Shown here: positions 51,848-63,962 of the stretch, piece after piece
Layout: each line of letters begins with the position of its first letter
Position numbering within the stretch: the stretch's first letter is position 1
NCBI RefSeq assembly: GCF_000208385.1
Contig: NC_015436.1
Location: forward strand, 186,001 to 250,000
Direction of reading: 5' to 3'
From: Parasphaerochaeta coccoides DSM 17374
GTDB taxonomy: Bacteria; Spirochaetota; Spirochaetia; Sphaerochaetales; Sphaerochaetaceae
Length of the DNA stretch: 64,000 bases
Notes under the pieces: generated by a model
What the model saw: only the letters and a program-made list of their open reading frames with translations
The model's database searches: none
What the model was told of the DNA's origin: nothing
Translations under genes and position numbers: made by a program

Positions 51848-52522
51848 ATGATTCATAAAACCCTGGGTCCGATTCCCGTGCCGACAATCAAGCGTTTGCC
51901 CTCATACCTGCGTGTTGTCAAACAATACAAGAGTGAAGGCGTCAAATGGGTGAGTGCCACCATGATTGCCGAGGAACTGAGATTGACGCCTATCCAAGTA
52001 CGCAAGGATATTTCCTGCACCGGAATAGAAGGCCGTCCCAAGGTGGGTTTCCAGATAGACGACCTGATTGATGCCATCATCTATAATTTAGGTTGGGATA
52101 ATACGACGGATGCCATTATTGTAGGCGCCGGTCATCTTGGACAGGCGTTGGCCGGATATGAAGGCTTTGATAGTTACGGTTTGAGGATTATCGGAGCATT
52201 CGACCATAATAAGAAGAAAGTCGGCGGACACATAGGCAAGGTCGAGATATATCATGTCGATACCATGGAATCCTTTGTCCTGAATAACCGCATACGTCTG
52301 GGAGTCATCGCCGTTCCCGCGAAAGCTGCGCAGGATATCGCGACCCGGATGGCGGACTGCGGAATCCTTGGCATATGGAACTTTGCCCCCCGCGACCTGA
52401 AGGTTCCTGACGGAGTGATTCTCCAGCGAACCGATCTTGCCACTAGCTTTGCCGTAATTTCCGCGAAACTGAGGCGTGAGATTAGCGTCGGGGAATACTA
52501 TGCTCCCATCATTGATGACTGA
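51848..52522 (+). CDS. rex: redox-sensing transcriptional repressor Rex
   Basis: A 224-residue NAD+/NADH-responsive repressor. The N-terminal winged helix (IPVPTIKRLPSYLRVVKQY...VSATMIAEELRLTPIQVRKDIS) binds DNA. The Rossmann domain has the fingerprint VGAGHLGQAL at 92-101. AAGGAGAGACA precedes the ATG. Rex usually controls fermentative and respiratory genes; no Rex box was identified here with confidence. Confidence 0.96.
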   Translation: MIHKTLGPIPVPTIKRLPSYLRVVKQYKSEGVKWVSATMIAEELRLTPIQVRKDISCTGIEGRPKVGFQIDDLIDAIIYNLGWDNTTDAIIVGAGHLGQALAGYEGFDSYGLRIIGAFDHNKKKVGGHIGKVEIYHVDTMESFVLNNRIRLGVIAVPAKAAQDIATRMADCGILGIWNFAPRDLKVPDGVILQRTDLATSFAVISAKLRREISVGEYYAPIIDD

Positions 52523-53024
52523 CATGAAGCTTGATGAAGGACTCCTCACGGCTCTGTGCGACCTCATTGAGGAAGCAGGGGACATTCATTCCCAATATTG
52601 CGGACTTGCCAACGCAGCGGCATTTCTTGCCGTCAACACCCCTGATATCAACTGGCTGGGTTTCTATGTGACCGTGGAAGATGGTGCCGTGGGAGACGCT
52701 TCCTCCCAAGGCAGATATCTCATCCTGGGACCTTTTTCCGGACTTCCTGCCTGTACGCGCATCACGTGGGGGAAGGGCGTCTGTGGAACTGCCGTGTCCC
52801 AGGACATCGTCCAGCGGGTGGCGGATGTACACGCCTTTGCCGGTCACATAGCCTGTGACCCCGCGTCCCGCAGCGAGCTTGTCATCCCGCTTCATGATGC
52901 AAAAGGCGTGGTAGTCGGTGTCCTTGACATCGACAGCCCGGTTCCTGACAGATTTTCTCCTGATGATGAAATCTTTTTCAGCGCGGCCGCGCGCATCATC
53001 GAGAGAAAGCTCTTTTCCTGGTGA
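52500..53024 (+). CDS. msrC: free methionine-(R)-sulfoxide reductase (GAF domain)
   Basis: A 174-residue GAF-domain enzyme that reduces free methionine-R-sulfoxide. All three redox cysteines are in the family pattern: Cys85 (LPACTRI), Cys95 (KGVCGTAV) and Cys119 (GHIACDPAS). SELVIPL and DIDSP also match. The start at 52500 has GGGGAATACT ahead and overlaps rex by 23 bases; a start at 52524 would avoid overlap but lacks a ribosome site. Co-transcription with rex fits a redox role. Confidence 0.9.
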   Translation: MLPSLMTDMKLDEGLLTALCDLIEEAGDIHSQYCGLANAAAFLAVNTPDINWLGFYVTVEDGAVGDASSQGRYLILGPFSGLPACTRITWGKGVCGTAVSQDIVQRVADVHAFAGHIACDPASRSELVIPLHDAKGVVVGVLDIDSPVPDRFSPDDEIFFSAAARIIERKLFSW

Positions 53025-53039
53025 GGTTTCCTATTGACT

Positions 53040-53372
53040 ATTTTCCTGACTATGCGCATCCTTTAGACAAAGGCAGAGACGAAGACGAGTAGTCAGTCCA
53101 GACGGCCAAGAGAAAGATGTCCATTGGAAAATGGGTGTGAGACATCTGCCGGGCTCCTGATGAAAACCCCTTCCGAGCCGCAGGTCGAAAGAGAAATCCG
53201 GTAGGCCCCGCCGCCCACCCTTGGCGTTACAGGGAAAAATGAGAGTCCGTGTCGGCGTATAAGAGACGGCAGGGGAATCAAGGTGGAACCGCGGAAACAT
53301 GAGCCTTCATGTTCCCGTCCTTGGGCAGATTTGTGGAAACGAATCGCAAGGGCTGGAGCATGAAGGTTTTTT
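53040..53372 (+). promoter_or_regulatory. T-box riboswitch of thrS
   Basis: A tRNA-sensing leader. The T-box sequence AAGGTGGAACCGCGG is at 53280-53294, and its antiterminator partner CGTCCTT at 53316-53322. A competing terminator pairs CCTTCATG (53304-53311) with CATGAAGG (53359-53366) and GTCCTTG (53317-53323) with CAAGGGC (53347-53353), followed by T6 (53367-53372). Stem I includes a GATGTC/GACATC helix with a CCATT-GGAA-AATGG tip. A candidate threonine specifier ACC is at 53166-53168. A TTGACT at 53034 may be the -35 box. Uncharged tRNA-Thr should permit thrS transcription. Confidence 0.88.
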
Positions 53373-53395
53373 CATATCGCGGGAGGAGGAAGGAC

Positions 53396-55162
53396 ATGGC
53401 TGAAATAATGGAAAAGGGCGGACAGGATGCCGCGCAGGAAAAACTGGAACGTATCAGACATTCCATGGCACACGTGATGGCGGAAGCGGTACTCCAGATG
53501 TTTCCGACGGCTCAGATTGCCATTGGACCGGTGATTGAGAATGGGTTTTATTATGACTTTGATCTGCCCCGGCCACTGGTCAAGGATGATTTAGAGGAAA
53601 TCACCGAGAGGATGAAGAAGATTATTGCCGAAGACAAGCCATTCATTCGTACTGTCGTCTCCCGTGATGAGGCGCGTCGGCGTTTTTCCGACCAGAAATA
53701 CAAAGTCGAGCTGCTTGATGCCATACCCGCCGACGAGGATGTTTCCCTTTATGACCAAGGTGGCTTCATCGACCTATGTCGTGGCCCCCATGTGGCTTCC
53801 ACCAAGGAGCTTCGCTCTGATTCCTTTGCCCTGCTCAACATAGCCGGCGCATATTGGAGGGGTAAGGAGACGAACCCCATGCTGACACGCATCTATGGCA
53901 CGGCATGGGCCAATCCTAAAGATTTGAGACTGTACCTCCAACATCTGGAAGACGTCGAAAAACGGGACAACAGACGGTTAGGCAAGGAACAGGATCTTTT
54001 CAGCCTGCATGAGGAAGCGGGTCCCGGTCTGGTCTACTGGCATCCGCGTGGAGCCAGGGTCAGGGTCGCCATAGAGAATTTCTGGCGTGACGAACACTAT
54101 AAGAACGGTTATGAGATGGTGTTTTCTCCCCATGTGGGACGGTCATGGCTCTGGGAGACAAGCGGCCACCTTGGATTCTACAAGGACAGCATGTATCCTG
54201 CCATGGAGATGGACAAGTCAGACTATTATGTGAAGCCGATGAACTGTCCTTTCCATATCATGATTTACAACAACAGCAAGCGTTCATACCGTGACCTGCC
54301 GATACGCATGGCCGAGCTGGGGACTGTCTATCGGTACGAGAAGGCGGGAGCCCTTCATGGTCTGATGCGGGTTCGCGGGTTCACTCAGGATGATGCCCAT
54401 TTGTTCTGTACTCCCGAACAGATGGATGATGAAATCCGGAAGGTTCTTGAATTTTCCCTCTACATGCTCCGTTCTTTCGGATTCCAGGATGTGAAAGCTT
54501 ACCTGTCCACCCGTCCTGAAGAATCAGTAGGTGAACGGGAACGCTGGGATGCCGCTACCAAGGCTCTGCGCAACGCCATAGAGAAAGAAGGACTTGCCTA
54601 TGAGGTCGATGAAGGAGGCGGAGCTTTCTATGGGCCGAAGATTGACTTGAAGGTAAAGGATGCCATCGGACGCGAATGGCAGCTATCCACCGTACAGTTC
54701 GACTTCAACATGTCAGACCGTTTCCAGATGACTTTCGTGGACAAGGACGGACAGGAGAAACGCCCGTACATGATTCATCGTGCCCTTTTGGGTTCCATTG
54801 AGAGGTTCTTCGGTGTCCTCATTGAAAACTATGCCGGAGCGTTCCCGCCATGGCTTGCCCCGGAACAGATCATGGTAGTGCCTGTGGGAGAGGCTTTTTT
54901 CCCGTATGCCACGGCATTGAGGGATCGTCTGCGCAAGGAAGGACTCCGGGCAGACGCCGACCTGAGCGATGACCGGATGAATGCCAAGATACGCAATGCC
55001 CAGCTCCACAAGATACCGTACCAGCTTGTCGTTGGTGAACGTGAGCAGAGTGAGGACAAGGTGTCGGTTCGCTATCGTAATGGCAATAAGGCCAATGATG
55101 TCCCGACAGCTGATTTCATTGCCGAAGTGAAGGCCGCGGTAGCCGCGCGGGAGCAGGTGTAA
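53396..55162 (+). CDS. thrS: threonyl-tRNA synthetase
   Basis: A 588-residue class II synthetase that charges tRNA-Thr. It starts at MAEIMEKGGQD behind a GGAGGAGGAAGGAC ribosome site downstream of the T-box terminator. The editing domain carries the HSMAH metal motif. Motifs 2 and 3 appear as MRVRGFTQDDAHLFC and IHRALLGSIERF, and the zinc-site cysteine is in MNCPFH. The usual N-terminal TGS domain of about 60 residues is missing. An in-frame ATG at 53309 would start inside the riboswitch and is rejected. The M32 peptidase gene follows after one base. Confidence 0.95.
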   Translation: MAEIMEKGGQDAAQEKLERIRHSMAHVMAEAVLQMFPTAQIAIGPVIENGFYYDFDLPRPLVKDDLEEITERMKKIIAEDKPFIRTVVSRDEARRRFSDQKYKVELLDAIPADEDVSLYDQGGFIDLCRGPHVASTKELRSDSFALLNIAGAYWRGKETNPMLTRIYGTAWANPKDLRLYLQHLEDVEKRDNRRLGKEQDLFSLHEEAGPGLVYWHPRGARVRVAIENFWRDEHYKNGYEMVFSPHVGRSWLWETSGHLGFYKDSMYPAMEMDKSDYYVKPMNCPFHIMIYNNSKRSYRDLPIRMAELGTVYRYEKAGALHGLMRVRGFTQDDAHLFCTPEQMDDEIRKVLEFSLYMLRSFGFQDVKAYLSTRPEESVGERERWDAATKALRNAIEKEGLAYEVDEGGGAFYGPKIDLKVKDAIGREWQLSTVQFDFNMSDRFQMTFVDKDGQEKRPYMIHRALLGSIERFFGVLIENYAGAFPPWLAPEQIMVVPVGEAFFPYATALRDRLRKEGLRADADLSDDRMNAKIRNAQLHKIPYQLVVGEREQSEDKVSVRYRNGNKANDVPTADFIAEVKAAVAAREQV

Positions 55163-55163
55163 C

Positions 55164-56702
55164 ATGACACGAGAGGAAGCATTGGTACTGTTGGAGGAAA
55201 TGGACAGGGAAATCACCCGTATCTCCCATATCACCGCTATCTTGGGATGGGATTTACAGGTCGGAGGCATGCCGTCTGCGGCTGCGCGGGACAGGGGTGA
55301 ACAGATAGGCTGGCTTGAAACTCAAGCGCACGCTGTTTCCGCAGGGAAACAGATGGAGGAAGTCCTGACTGTCTTGGGAGCTTCTCCCGACCAGCCCAGT
55401 GGCAATCCATTCCTTGATGACCGGAGTGCCGCATTGGTACGCCTGCGCTATGATGCATGGAAGAAAAGCCATGCGCTGAGCCCTGACTATATCCGGCGCA
55501 ACGCTGTCGCCGTAGGCATGGCACAGGTGGCATGGCAGAAGGCTCGCGAACAGGATGACTGGGCGGCCTTCAAGCCCCATCTTGAACTGAACGTATCCCT
55601 TGCCCGCGAGAGGGCGGCTCTTTATGGCAGTGGTGATGGCAGTCCTCTGTATGACGCTTTGCTTGATATTTATGAACCAGGGATGACATCTGTCCGTGTC
55701 GATGAAATATTCGCCAGCATGGAGTCGCATCTGCGCTCCCTGCTCAATCGGATTTCCGGCAAACCCGTGCCACGTCAGGATTTTCTCCATCAGAACTATC
55801 CGGTGGATGTCCAAGAGCGTTTTTCCCGCAAGGTTCTGGCCGACATGGGCTTTGATTTCTCCAGGGGACTCACGGGATTGTCCGCCCATCCGTTCACTAC
55901 GACGCTCGGTTCCCACGACATCCGCATCACGACGAATTATAAGGATAAGTCAGTTGCGGAACCTCTGTTTTCAACGATTCATGAAGGAGGACATGCCTTG
56001 TATGAACAGGCGGCCTCCAACGACATGACCAGTGGCACAAGCCTTGCCGGAGGAGCCAGCCTTGCTCTCCATGAAAGTCAATCACGCCTCTGGGAGAACA
56101 TTATTGCCCGCAGTCCAGCATTCTGGACACATTATTATCCTGTTTTCACCACATTGTTTCCTCATGAAACTGAAGGCATTTCCCGTGATGATTTTGTCCG
56201 AGCCATCAATGTTGTCCGTCCCAGCCTGATTCGTACAGCCAGTGACGAGGTGACCTACGGCCTTCATATCATCCTCCGCTATACTCTTGAAAAAGCTCTG
56301 ATTAGCGGGGAACTGGGAGTAGATGACCTGCCCTCAGCATGGAATGACGGCATGGAAAGACTGCTCGGTGTTCGACCGCGGAATGCCGCACAAGGCGTAC
56401 TCCAGGACATTCATTGGGCAGGAGGTGATTTCGGATATTTTCCGACGTATGCGCTGGGGAATCTGTATGGAGCGCAATTCTGGTATGCGATGCGCCGGGA
56501 CATGGGTGCGGAGGCTGTCGATCATGGCATTGAAAGGGGAGACCTTTCGCTAGTCCGTGAATGGCTGAAAAACAATATCCTCCGTCACGGAAGCATTTAT
56601 ACTGCACGAACGTTGGTCGAAAAAGTGACTGGGTCGCCCCTTGACGCGGTGTGGTTTGCCCGCTACCTTGATGAAAAGTATACAGCTTTGTATGACCTTT
56701 GA
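55164..56702 (+). CDS. M32 family metal carboxypeptidase
   Basis: A 512-residue thermostable-type carboxypeptidase (Taq family). The zinc-binding HEGGH is at 273-277 with the downstream glutamate in GGASLALHESQSRLWENI. Family motifs TTLGSHDIRITTNY, DEVTYGLHIILRYTLEKALISGEL and DIHWAGGDFGYFPTYALGNLYGAQFW are intact. It removes C-terminal residues from cytoplasmic peptides. The ATG lies one base past the thrS stop, so it probably shares the T-box-controlled transcript. Confidence 0.95.
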   Translation: MTREEALVLLEEMDREITRISHITAILGWDLQVGGMPSAAARDRGEQIGWLETQAHAVSAGKQMEEVLTVLGASPDQPSGNPFLDDRSAALVRLRYDAWKKSHALSPDYIRRNAVAVGMAQVAWQKAREQDDWAAFKPHLELNVSLARERAALYGSGDGSPLYDALLDIYEPGMTSVRVDEIFASMESHLRSLLNRISGKPVPRQDFLHQNYPVDVQERFSRKVLADMGFDFSRGLTGLSAHPFTTTLGSHDIRITTNYKDKSVAEPLFSTIHEGGHALYEQAASNDMTSGTSLAGGASLALHESQSRLWENIIARSPAFWTHYYPVFTTLFPHETEGISRDDFVRAINVVRPSLIRTASDEVTYGLHIILRYTLEKALISGELGVDDLPSAWNDGMERLLGVRPRNAAQGVLQDIHWAGGDFGYFPTYALGNLYGAQFWYAMRRDMGAEAVDHGIERGDLSLVREWLKNNILRHGSIYTARTLVEKVTGSPLDAVWFARYLDEKYTALYDL

Positions 56703-56764
56703 ACGTTCAGGGGGGCAGCGAAGCTGATTTCCTATACTGCGGGATATACCGCGGGAGAGGCATG

Positions 56765-57361
56765 ATGAATGTACCGAACAAGCTGACGGTGACCAGGCTC
56801 ATACTGGTTCCTGTATTTTTCGTCGTTTTCAACCTGAGCCGCTGGTTCGGTGATTCCCTCGCCGACCTTGCGACTGTCATGGTAATCATTTTGTTTATTG
56901 TGACGGAGGCCACCGATATCCTTGACGGACAGATTGCCCGTCGCCGGAACATGGTCACTGACCTTGGGAAAGTGATGGATCCTTTTGCTGACACGCTTAG
57001 CCATCTGACGTATTTTGTCTGCCTCATGATGGCCGGAATCATGCCTGACTGGGCTTTTGTCATCATCATGTGGCGGGAGTTTGGCATCCTGTTTGTCCGT
57101 ATGCTCATGATGAAGACAGGCAAAGCCGTTCCAGCGAATATCTGGGGCAAGAGCAAGACAGTCCTTTATGCGGTCAGTTCCATCCTGGGTATCCTTTTCC
57201 TGGCTTTCCGGCGATGGATGCCTGATGCCGCATGGCTTTCGACTGGCTCCTACGTGCTGGTTGCCGTCTTTGCCCTTGCCGCCGCGGCCTCGGTGATTTC
57301 TTTTCTCACCTATATCATGGCCATCATTTCCAGCAAAGTCCTGTCCCACTTGAGCAGATGA
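56765..57361 (+). CDS. pgsA: CDP-diacylglycerol-glycerol-3-phosphate 3-phosphatidyltransferase
   Basis: A 198-residue membrane enzyme making phosphatidylglycerol phosphate. The CDP-alcohol phosphotransferase signature D-x2-DG-x2-AR-x8-G-x3-D-x3-D is complete (TDILDGQIARRRNMV, then GKVMDPFAD). Six hydrophobic segments are visible. Start NVPNKLTVTRLILVPVF is characteristic for PgsA. ATG 56762 and 56765 are both possible; the second is better spaced from GGGAG. Its stop overlaps the next gene (ATGATG). Confidence 0.9.
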   Translation: MNVPNKLTVTRLILVPVFFVVFNLSRWFGDSLADLATVMVIILFIVTEATDILDGQIARRRNMVTDLGKVMDPFADTLSHLTYFVCLMMAGIMPDWAFVIIMWREFGILFVRMLMMKTGKAVPANIWGKSKTVLYAVSSILGILFLAFRRWMPDAAWLSTGSYVLVAVFALAAAASVISFLTYIMAIISSKVLSHLSR

Positions 57362-58982: not shown

Positions 58983-60519
<1,537 letters not shown>

Positions 60520-60651
60520 GAGAAGAAAGGGAGCCTGTGGGGCGGAAGTCCTGGAGGCGGACAAACGGACGTTGTCCAGCAGGAGGAAGGACCTGCACGG
60601 GCCCTTGCCCCCTTACATCTCTTTCTCTTCTTTGATATCTCTGAAACACCG

Positions 60652-60725
60652 GGGACTGTAGCTCAGGTGGTTAGAGCGCGTGCCTGATAAGCACGAGGTC
60701 ACAAGTTCAAGTCTTGTCAGTCCCA
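60652..60725 (+). tRNA. tRNA-Ile (anticodon GAT)
   Basis: A 74-base cloverleaf in the 16S-23S spacer. Acceptor GGGACTG pairs with CAGTCCC, the anticodon arm is CGTGC-CTGATAA-GCACG, and the T-loop is GTTCAAG. The discriminator is A, and CCA is not encoded. Confidence 0.97.
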
Positions 60726-60808
60726 GCAGACACTGCGCTCGCTACCAAAAGAAACGGGACGGTGTTGTTTTTTTGACATAAATGAGAGACGGGCTGGAAG
60801 AAAAATAT

Positions 60809-63772
<2,964 letters not shown>

Positions 63773-63849
63773 ATATTCTTGTTCCGGCCCGCACACAGCG
63801 GGCTGCGCCCGCGCCTCTTCCGGATCGGAGGGAGCGCAGGGGGCAGCCG

Positions 63850-63962
63850 GCCCGGTGGTCATAGCAGAGTGGTCATACCCGTTCCCATCCCGAACACGGC
63901 AGTCAAGCACTCTCGCGCCGATGGTACTGCGTTTTTCGCGGGAGAGTAGGTCGCCGCCGGGC
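63850..63962 (+). rRNA. rrf: 5S ribosomal RNA
   Basis: About 113 bases. The 5' GCCCGGTGGT pairs with the 3' GCCGCCGGGC. The core CCGTTCCCATCCCGAACACGG and GGGAGAGTAGGTCG is standard. It lies 77 bases after 23S. Confidence 0.95.

Follow-up and report, generated by a model that had tools for sequence, protein, structure and literature searches.

A threonine T-box leader upstream of thrS in Parasphaerochaeta coccoides and its history in the Spirochaetia

Described T-box systems and the spirochaete locus

The closest described relatives of the leader analyzed here are the class I thrS T-boxes of the Bacillota (RF00230, TBDB), in which the same Stem I with an ACC specifier, a UGGN bulge and an antiterminator/terminator pair precede the same controlled gene. 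The Bacillota thrS gene often carries two or three leaders in tandem (PMC12452182), whereas the spirochaete gene has a single one. The spirochaete system also differs in its host, in a threonyl-tRNA synthetase (ThrRS) that is from another lineage and lacks the TGS domain, and in its operon partners, an M32 carboxypeptidase gene and pgsA in place of, for example, infC-rpmI-rplT. A second likeness is found in the Anaerolineae, where thrS leaders (for example, L266, L268 and L269) have the same ACC, a UGGA bulge and a terminator-like hairpin upstream of a TGS-less ThrRS from the same large clade, but where the leader sequence, unlike that of the spirochaete, falls with Firmicutes leaders. T-boxes of class II (translational), for which the Actinobacteria are the best-known source, share the sensing parts and differ in output, in that they sequester the ribosome-binding site while the leader described here ends in a terminator.

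The locus lies in a stretch of 64,000 nucleotides (the window; 50.2% GC), which is positions 186001-250000 of the single-contig genome of Parasphaerochaeta coccoides DSM 17374, described as Sphaerochaeta coccoides with a single 2.23-Mb chromosome at 50.6% GC (PMC3726837). As to T-boxes in spirochaetes or Sphaerochaeta, the literature yielded only the zero count of a 2008 survey, in which T-boxes were mostly from Firmicutes and none was found in six spirochaete genomes (PMC2494555); single sequences may already stand in TBDB or Rfam. The mechanism of the T-box at this locus is ordinary, and its distribution and history are less so.

Architecture and specificity of the leader

All of the features described below are on the forward strand, with coordinates given as positions in the window. 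The leader RNA, from Stem I to the antiterminator, matched the full RF00230 model (1-219 of 219) at 53067-53325 in a cmscan search, with a positive score of 74.4 bits and an E-value of 2.3e-16 in a 501-bp search (2.4e-16 against the whole genome); the alignment spans the K-turn and the distal parts of Stem I. This was the sole RF00230 match when the 2,227,296-bp genome was searched with the covariance model. The T-box is absent from the default Rfam scan of the window because its score is short of the 93-bit gathering score, and the leader was recovered by searching on E-value. The same holds for many relatives: in family f1, our label for the genomes ranked in the window's own family, 70 of the 122 genomes with RF00230 matches likewise score below 93.

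The base of Stem I, with the K-turn/GA motif region, reads GACGAAGACGAGTAG (53078-53093) in the alignment to RF00230 and is near-identical among family leaders. That alignment also places the specifier codon, ACC for threonine, at 53166-53168. Positions 53280-53294 hold the T-box core, AAGGTGGAACCGCGG, which contains the bulge UGGAACC (53284-53290), the UGGA of which is complementary to the 3' UCCA of tRNA-Thr. The antiterminator (53278-53324) consists of helices A1 (53278-53283 with 53319-53324) and A2. When the RNA was folded only as far as 53325, the unconstrained minimum-energy structure was this canonical antiterminator, with the 7-nt bulge unpaired (-17.6 kcal/mol). Longer RNA favors a competing intrinsic terminator at 53301-53372, which ends in six T residues (53367-53372) and has a predicted energy of -40.5 kcal/mol, compared with -17.9 +/- 3.0 for same-base shuffles and -25.0 for the best shuffle. 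The terminator sequesters six of the seven nucleotides of the antiterminator 3' strand, as it does in almost every family relative, and the two structures are mutually exclusive, as is typical of class I. The fold of the whole leader beats shuffles by only a modest margin (z -2.0), as is expected where tertiary contacts hold much of Stem I. The core, antiterminator and competing T6 terminator that the original prediction had read by eye within 53040-53372, an interval that takes in both leader and terminator, were thus all found by covariance model and folding. With Stem I, specifier, bulge, antiterminator and exclusive terminator in place, the leader can be classed as a true, class I (transcriptional) member of the T-box family, with as much support as sequence can give.

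A putative promoter (TTGACT - 17 nt - CATCCT) at 53034-53062 would place the start of the transcript probably near 53069. Taken by itself, this element in the window was no better than shuffles, and a generic promoter scan listed nothing near the leader. Its support comes only from its fixed position in relatives: in most of the f1 loci read, a TTGACW-17-NATNNT element ends 3-5 nt upstream of the T-box.

The specifier was assigned by a rule that takes the codon 6 nt before the conserved GAG. In support of this placing, the same rule applied elsewhere gives TTC upstream of pheS (L003), TAC upstream of a gene like that for tyrosine phenol-lyase (L036) and AAC upstream of an aminotransferase gene (L076). 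The sequence AAA-ACC at the specifier is kept in nearly all of the spirochaete thrS leaders read. In Firmicutes T-boxes the base following the specifier is usually a purine; in the window leader it is C. The tRNA-Thr anticodons of the genome are GGU, CGU and UGU, and tRNA-Thr(GGU) is cognate to ACC. The claim that the T-box is transcriptional and threonine-specific is borne out by the specifier, by this tRNA and by the strong, mutually exclusive terminator.

At the acceptor contact, all three tRNA-Thr genes have discriminator U73, which complements the A of UGGA, so that the variable base of the UGGN motif is paired in the window genome. Across the spirochaetes the pattern is less regular. tRNA-Thr(GGU) had U73 in all 48 genomes examined, while the variable T-box base was A in 20, U in 24, G in 3 and C in 1; no covariation between the two positions was seen in these 48 genomes, since the tRNA base is constant and the T-box base is not. 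According to TBDB, this contact is a Watson-Crick pair in the majority of cases, with wobble allowed (PMC7778990), and the U-U mismatch in 24 genomes (UGGU against U73; for example, L081 with L205) was unexpected. The discriminator pair is thus no safe rule in spirochaetes, because half of the leaders have UGGU despite U73. UGGU was commoner among leaders without a recognisable terminator, a count for which the relatedness of the genomes may account.

The gene downstream, thrS (53396-55162, with an ATG start codon at 53396), encodes a threonine--tRNA ligase of 588 residues (TIGR00418, 716 bits), the only ThrRS of the genome. Its Pfam domains are SAD, tRNA-synt_2b and HGTP_anticodon; the Pfam scan found no TGS domain, and about 20 residues precede the SAD/editing region. 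The M32 (Taq) carboxypeptidase gene (55164-56702; PF02074, 537 bits) begins 1 nt past the thrS stop codon and is the second gene of a probable operon, with pgsA (56762-57361; TIGR00560, 133 bits; start codon picked by homology) as the probable third. On the other side, the gene for a GAF-domain protein (52476-53024; PF01590), a conserved neighbor, ends upstream of the leader promoter. The order GAF-T-box-thrS-M32-pgsA recurs in nearly all f1 loci that extend far enough, and M32 also follows thrS in six further families (f7, f11, f17, f18, f19 and f21). Read-through from the T-box is likely to co-regulate M32, because of the 1-nt gap and the conserved gene order, and the suggestion in the original prediction that the carboxypeptidase is under the same control is thereby probable. 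Beyond these genes and that of a HAD-family hydrolase, the window contains a 16S - tRNA-Ile - 23S - 5S rRNA operon (58983-63962).

Distribution of T-boxes among spirochaetes

At least one T-box match was found in 122 of the 139 genomes of f1, and matches were found in 72 of 393 genomes sampled across the phylum. Among the loci read, thrS is the gene immediately downstream of 81 T-boxes (47 in f1, with the other 34 spread over twelve more families of the Spirochaetia), and 28 precede other genes; thrS T-boxes are thus found in 13 families of the Spirochaetia. Within the 81 thrS leaders, 403 of the 405 cells of the A1 helix are paired, a count that leans to pairing because the 3' strand was sought from a GTCC anchor and the best-pairing candidate was taken. 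Compensatory changes occur at three of the five A1 pairs (C-G to T-A and A-T to G-C), and almost every f1 leader retains the terminator. Rather than having come recently from Firmicutes, the leader has long been inherited in the Sphaerochaeta-like family and across much of the Spirochaetia.

The survey also turned up T-boxes of other kinds. Five thrS leaders from other spirochaete families (L037, L039, L048, L066 and L068) lack a T-run and have a long Stem I, and their ribosome-binding site is paired with the bases that follow GUCC; these are probably translational T-boxes, judging from their predicted pairing. In f1, T-boxes with valine or isoleucine codons as specifiers (GTC, GTA and ATC) stand before the gene for a protein of about 755 residues (L012, L083-L096, L100 and L110), which by reading alone resembles a fusion of an HTH-cupin part with an AMP-forming acyl-CoA ligase. 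In family f9, TAC (tyrosine) T-boxes (L032, L034, L035, L033, L051-L053 and L036) precede sodium:solute symporter-like, AMP-ligase-like and tyrosine phenol-lyase/tryptophanase-like genes. A T-box stands before trpB in one spirochaete (L062, family f8), and one with an AAC (Asn) specifier precedes the aminotransferase gene in another class of the phylum (L076, family f37). The pheS gene with its Phe T-box (L003, G049:C241) is on an AT-rich contig of 3.5 kb, probably a contaminating Firmicutes contig.

Histories of the leader and the enzyme

ThrRS trees were built from 87, 142 and 59 sequences. In these trees the window ThrRS falls in a Spirochaetia clade that also includes families f2 and f5, which have no T-box. 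A second spirochaete type of ThrRS (f3, f6, f7 and f11) is sister to the enzymes of Beta- and Gammaproteobacteria, and a tree constrained to join the window ThrRS to this type was rejected (p-AU 0.0007). In six genomes (G341, G471, G268, G437, G490 and G477), a second-type enzyme is the sole ThrRS and stands behind the same thrS leader; the M32 neighbor was kept in several genomes with an exchanged enzyme. The leaders of second-type enzymes do not cluster in the leader tree, which rests on about 250 alignable columns, and are instead intermixed with first-type leaders. The same leader thus precedes two or three unrelated types of ThrRS. Because distinct single-copy types of ThrRS sit behind the same leader, leader and enzyme have separate histories, in which the enzyme was exchanged and the leader kept its place.

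A probable exchange on a finer scale is seen within genus g13 of f1. Three of its genomes retain GAF, T-box, M32 and pgsA around thrS, but the ThrRS of one (G081) is 73% identical to that of the window, whereas those of the other two (G082 and G083), each in single copy, are only 44-46% identical to it. The leader of G083 is 63% identical to the window leader, with specifier, bulge and terminator preserved. The enzymes of G082 and G083 were probably swapped between an unchanged T-box and unchanged neighbors; very fast divergence, which their long branch would also allow, is the less likely reading.

The alternative that survives best, though we consider it rather unlikely, is that a T-box and a TGS-less ThrRS were transferred together in ancient times between the Chloroflexota (Anaerolineae) and an ancestor of the Spirochaetia, and were inherited vertically from then on. 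Outside the spirochaetes, the nearest relatives of the window ThrRS are those of Chloroflexota and of the Verrucomicrobiota/Kiritimatiellota (PVC) group, with Actinomycetota nearby (node support 100/99); the Chloroflexota enzymes are among the closest, at 56-61% identity, and a tree that unites the spirochaete type with Chloroflexota plus Actinomycetota was not rejected (p-AU 0.26). A T-box core is found upstream of thrS at seven Chloroflexota loci, mostly Anaerolineae, five of which were confirmed by the covariance model with an ACC specifier, and most of these ThrRS are without a long N-terminal part. However, the Chloroflexota leaders group with those of Firmicutes (99/99), with the qualification that joining them to the spirochaete leaders was not rejected (p-AU 0.38). 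No T-box core was found upstream of the PVC ThrRS of the same clade, and the branching order within the clade is not settled by the tree. The likeness between Anaerolineae and spirochaetes may also reflect shared inheritance with losses.

The other alternatives fare much worse. It is highly improbable that the leader is a degenerate, T-box-like relic that has lost its switching: it scores under the Rfam cut-off and the genome has no other T-box left, but none of its functional elements is damaged, the tRNA fits at both contacts, and the specifier, bulge, antiterminator and terminator have been kept over large sequence divergence. A translational T-box that hides the Shine-Dalgarno sequence, which some of the spirochaete relatives seem to be (the five leaders noted above), is a still more remote prospect for the window leader, in which neither a hidden ribosome-binding site nor the lack of a terminator was found; the strong T6 terminator lies ahead of the thrS ribosome-binding site (about 53383-53394), and the pairing partner of the antiterminator 3' strand is inside the terminator rather than at that site. 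Finally, the proposal in the original prediction that leader and thrS came jointly into the lineage from a Firmicutes-like donor is hardly credible, for although T-boxes are mostly a Firmicutes feature by the 2008 count and the UGGA core and ACC specifier resemble those of Firmicutes thrS leaders, grouping the window ThrRS with Firmicutes was rejected (delta lnL 213, p-AU 4.1e-54), the Firmicutes enzymes read have a long TGS-sized N-terminal part that the window ThrRS lacks, thrS T-boxes occur in 13 spirochaete families, the same leader precedes unrelated enzymes, and the window leader groups with family leaders while the Firmicutes and Chloroflexota leaders stand apart from all spirochaete leaders.

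The thrS leader is thus very probably a threonine-specific transcriptional T-box that was inherited in the Spirochaetia and has outlasted exchanges of the enzyme. From its parts and the matching tRNAs, we infer tRNA binding, switching and operon read-through along familiar lines. Transcription would begin just upstream of Stem I. With uncharged tRNA-Thr, the GGU anticodon would pair with the ACC specifier and the UCCA end with the UGGA bulge, so that the antiterminator would be held and the polymerase would continue into thrS. With charged tRNA-Thr, the acceptor end could not dock, the more stable terminator would form, and transcription would stop near 53372. A shortage of threonine would in this way turn on thrS.

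With these leaders the range of the T-box gains a major Gram-negative lineage, and the standard Rfam cut-off still overlooks most of the spirochaete cases. We would go one step further only tentatively, leaning slightly against it: the Spirochaetia thrS T-box may be a resident control module whose synthetase has been repeatedly exchanged, and which works in about half of the lineages despite a U-U mismatch, with the acceptor-end rule relaxed. The leader also provides a clean case of a regulatory RNA that stays at its locus as the enzyme behind it is replaced, which bears on how riboswitches spread.
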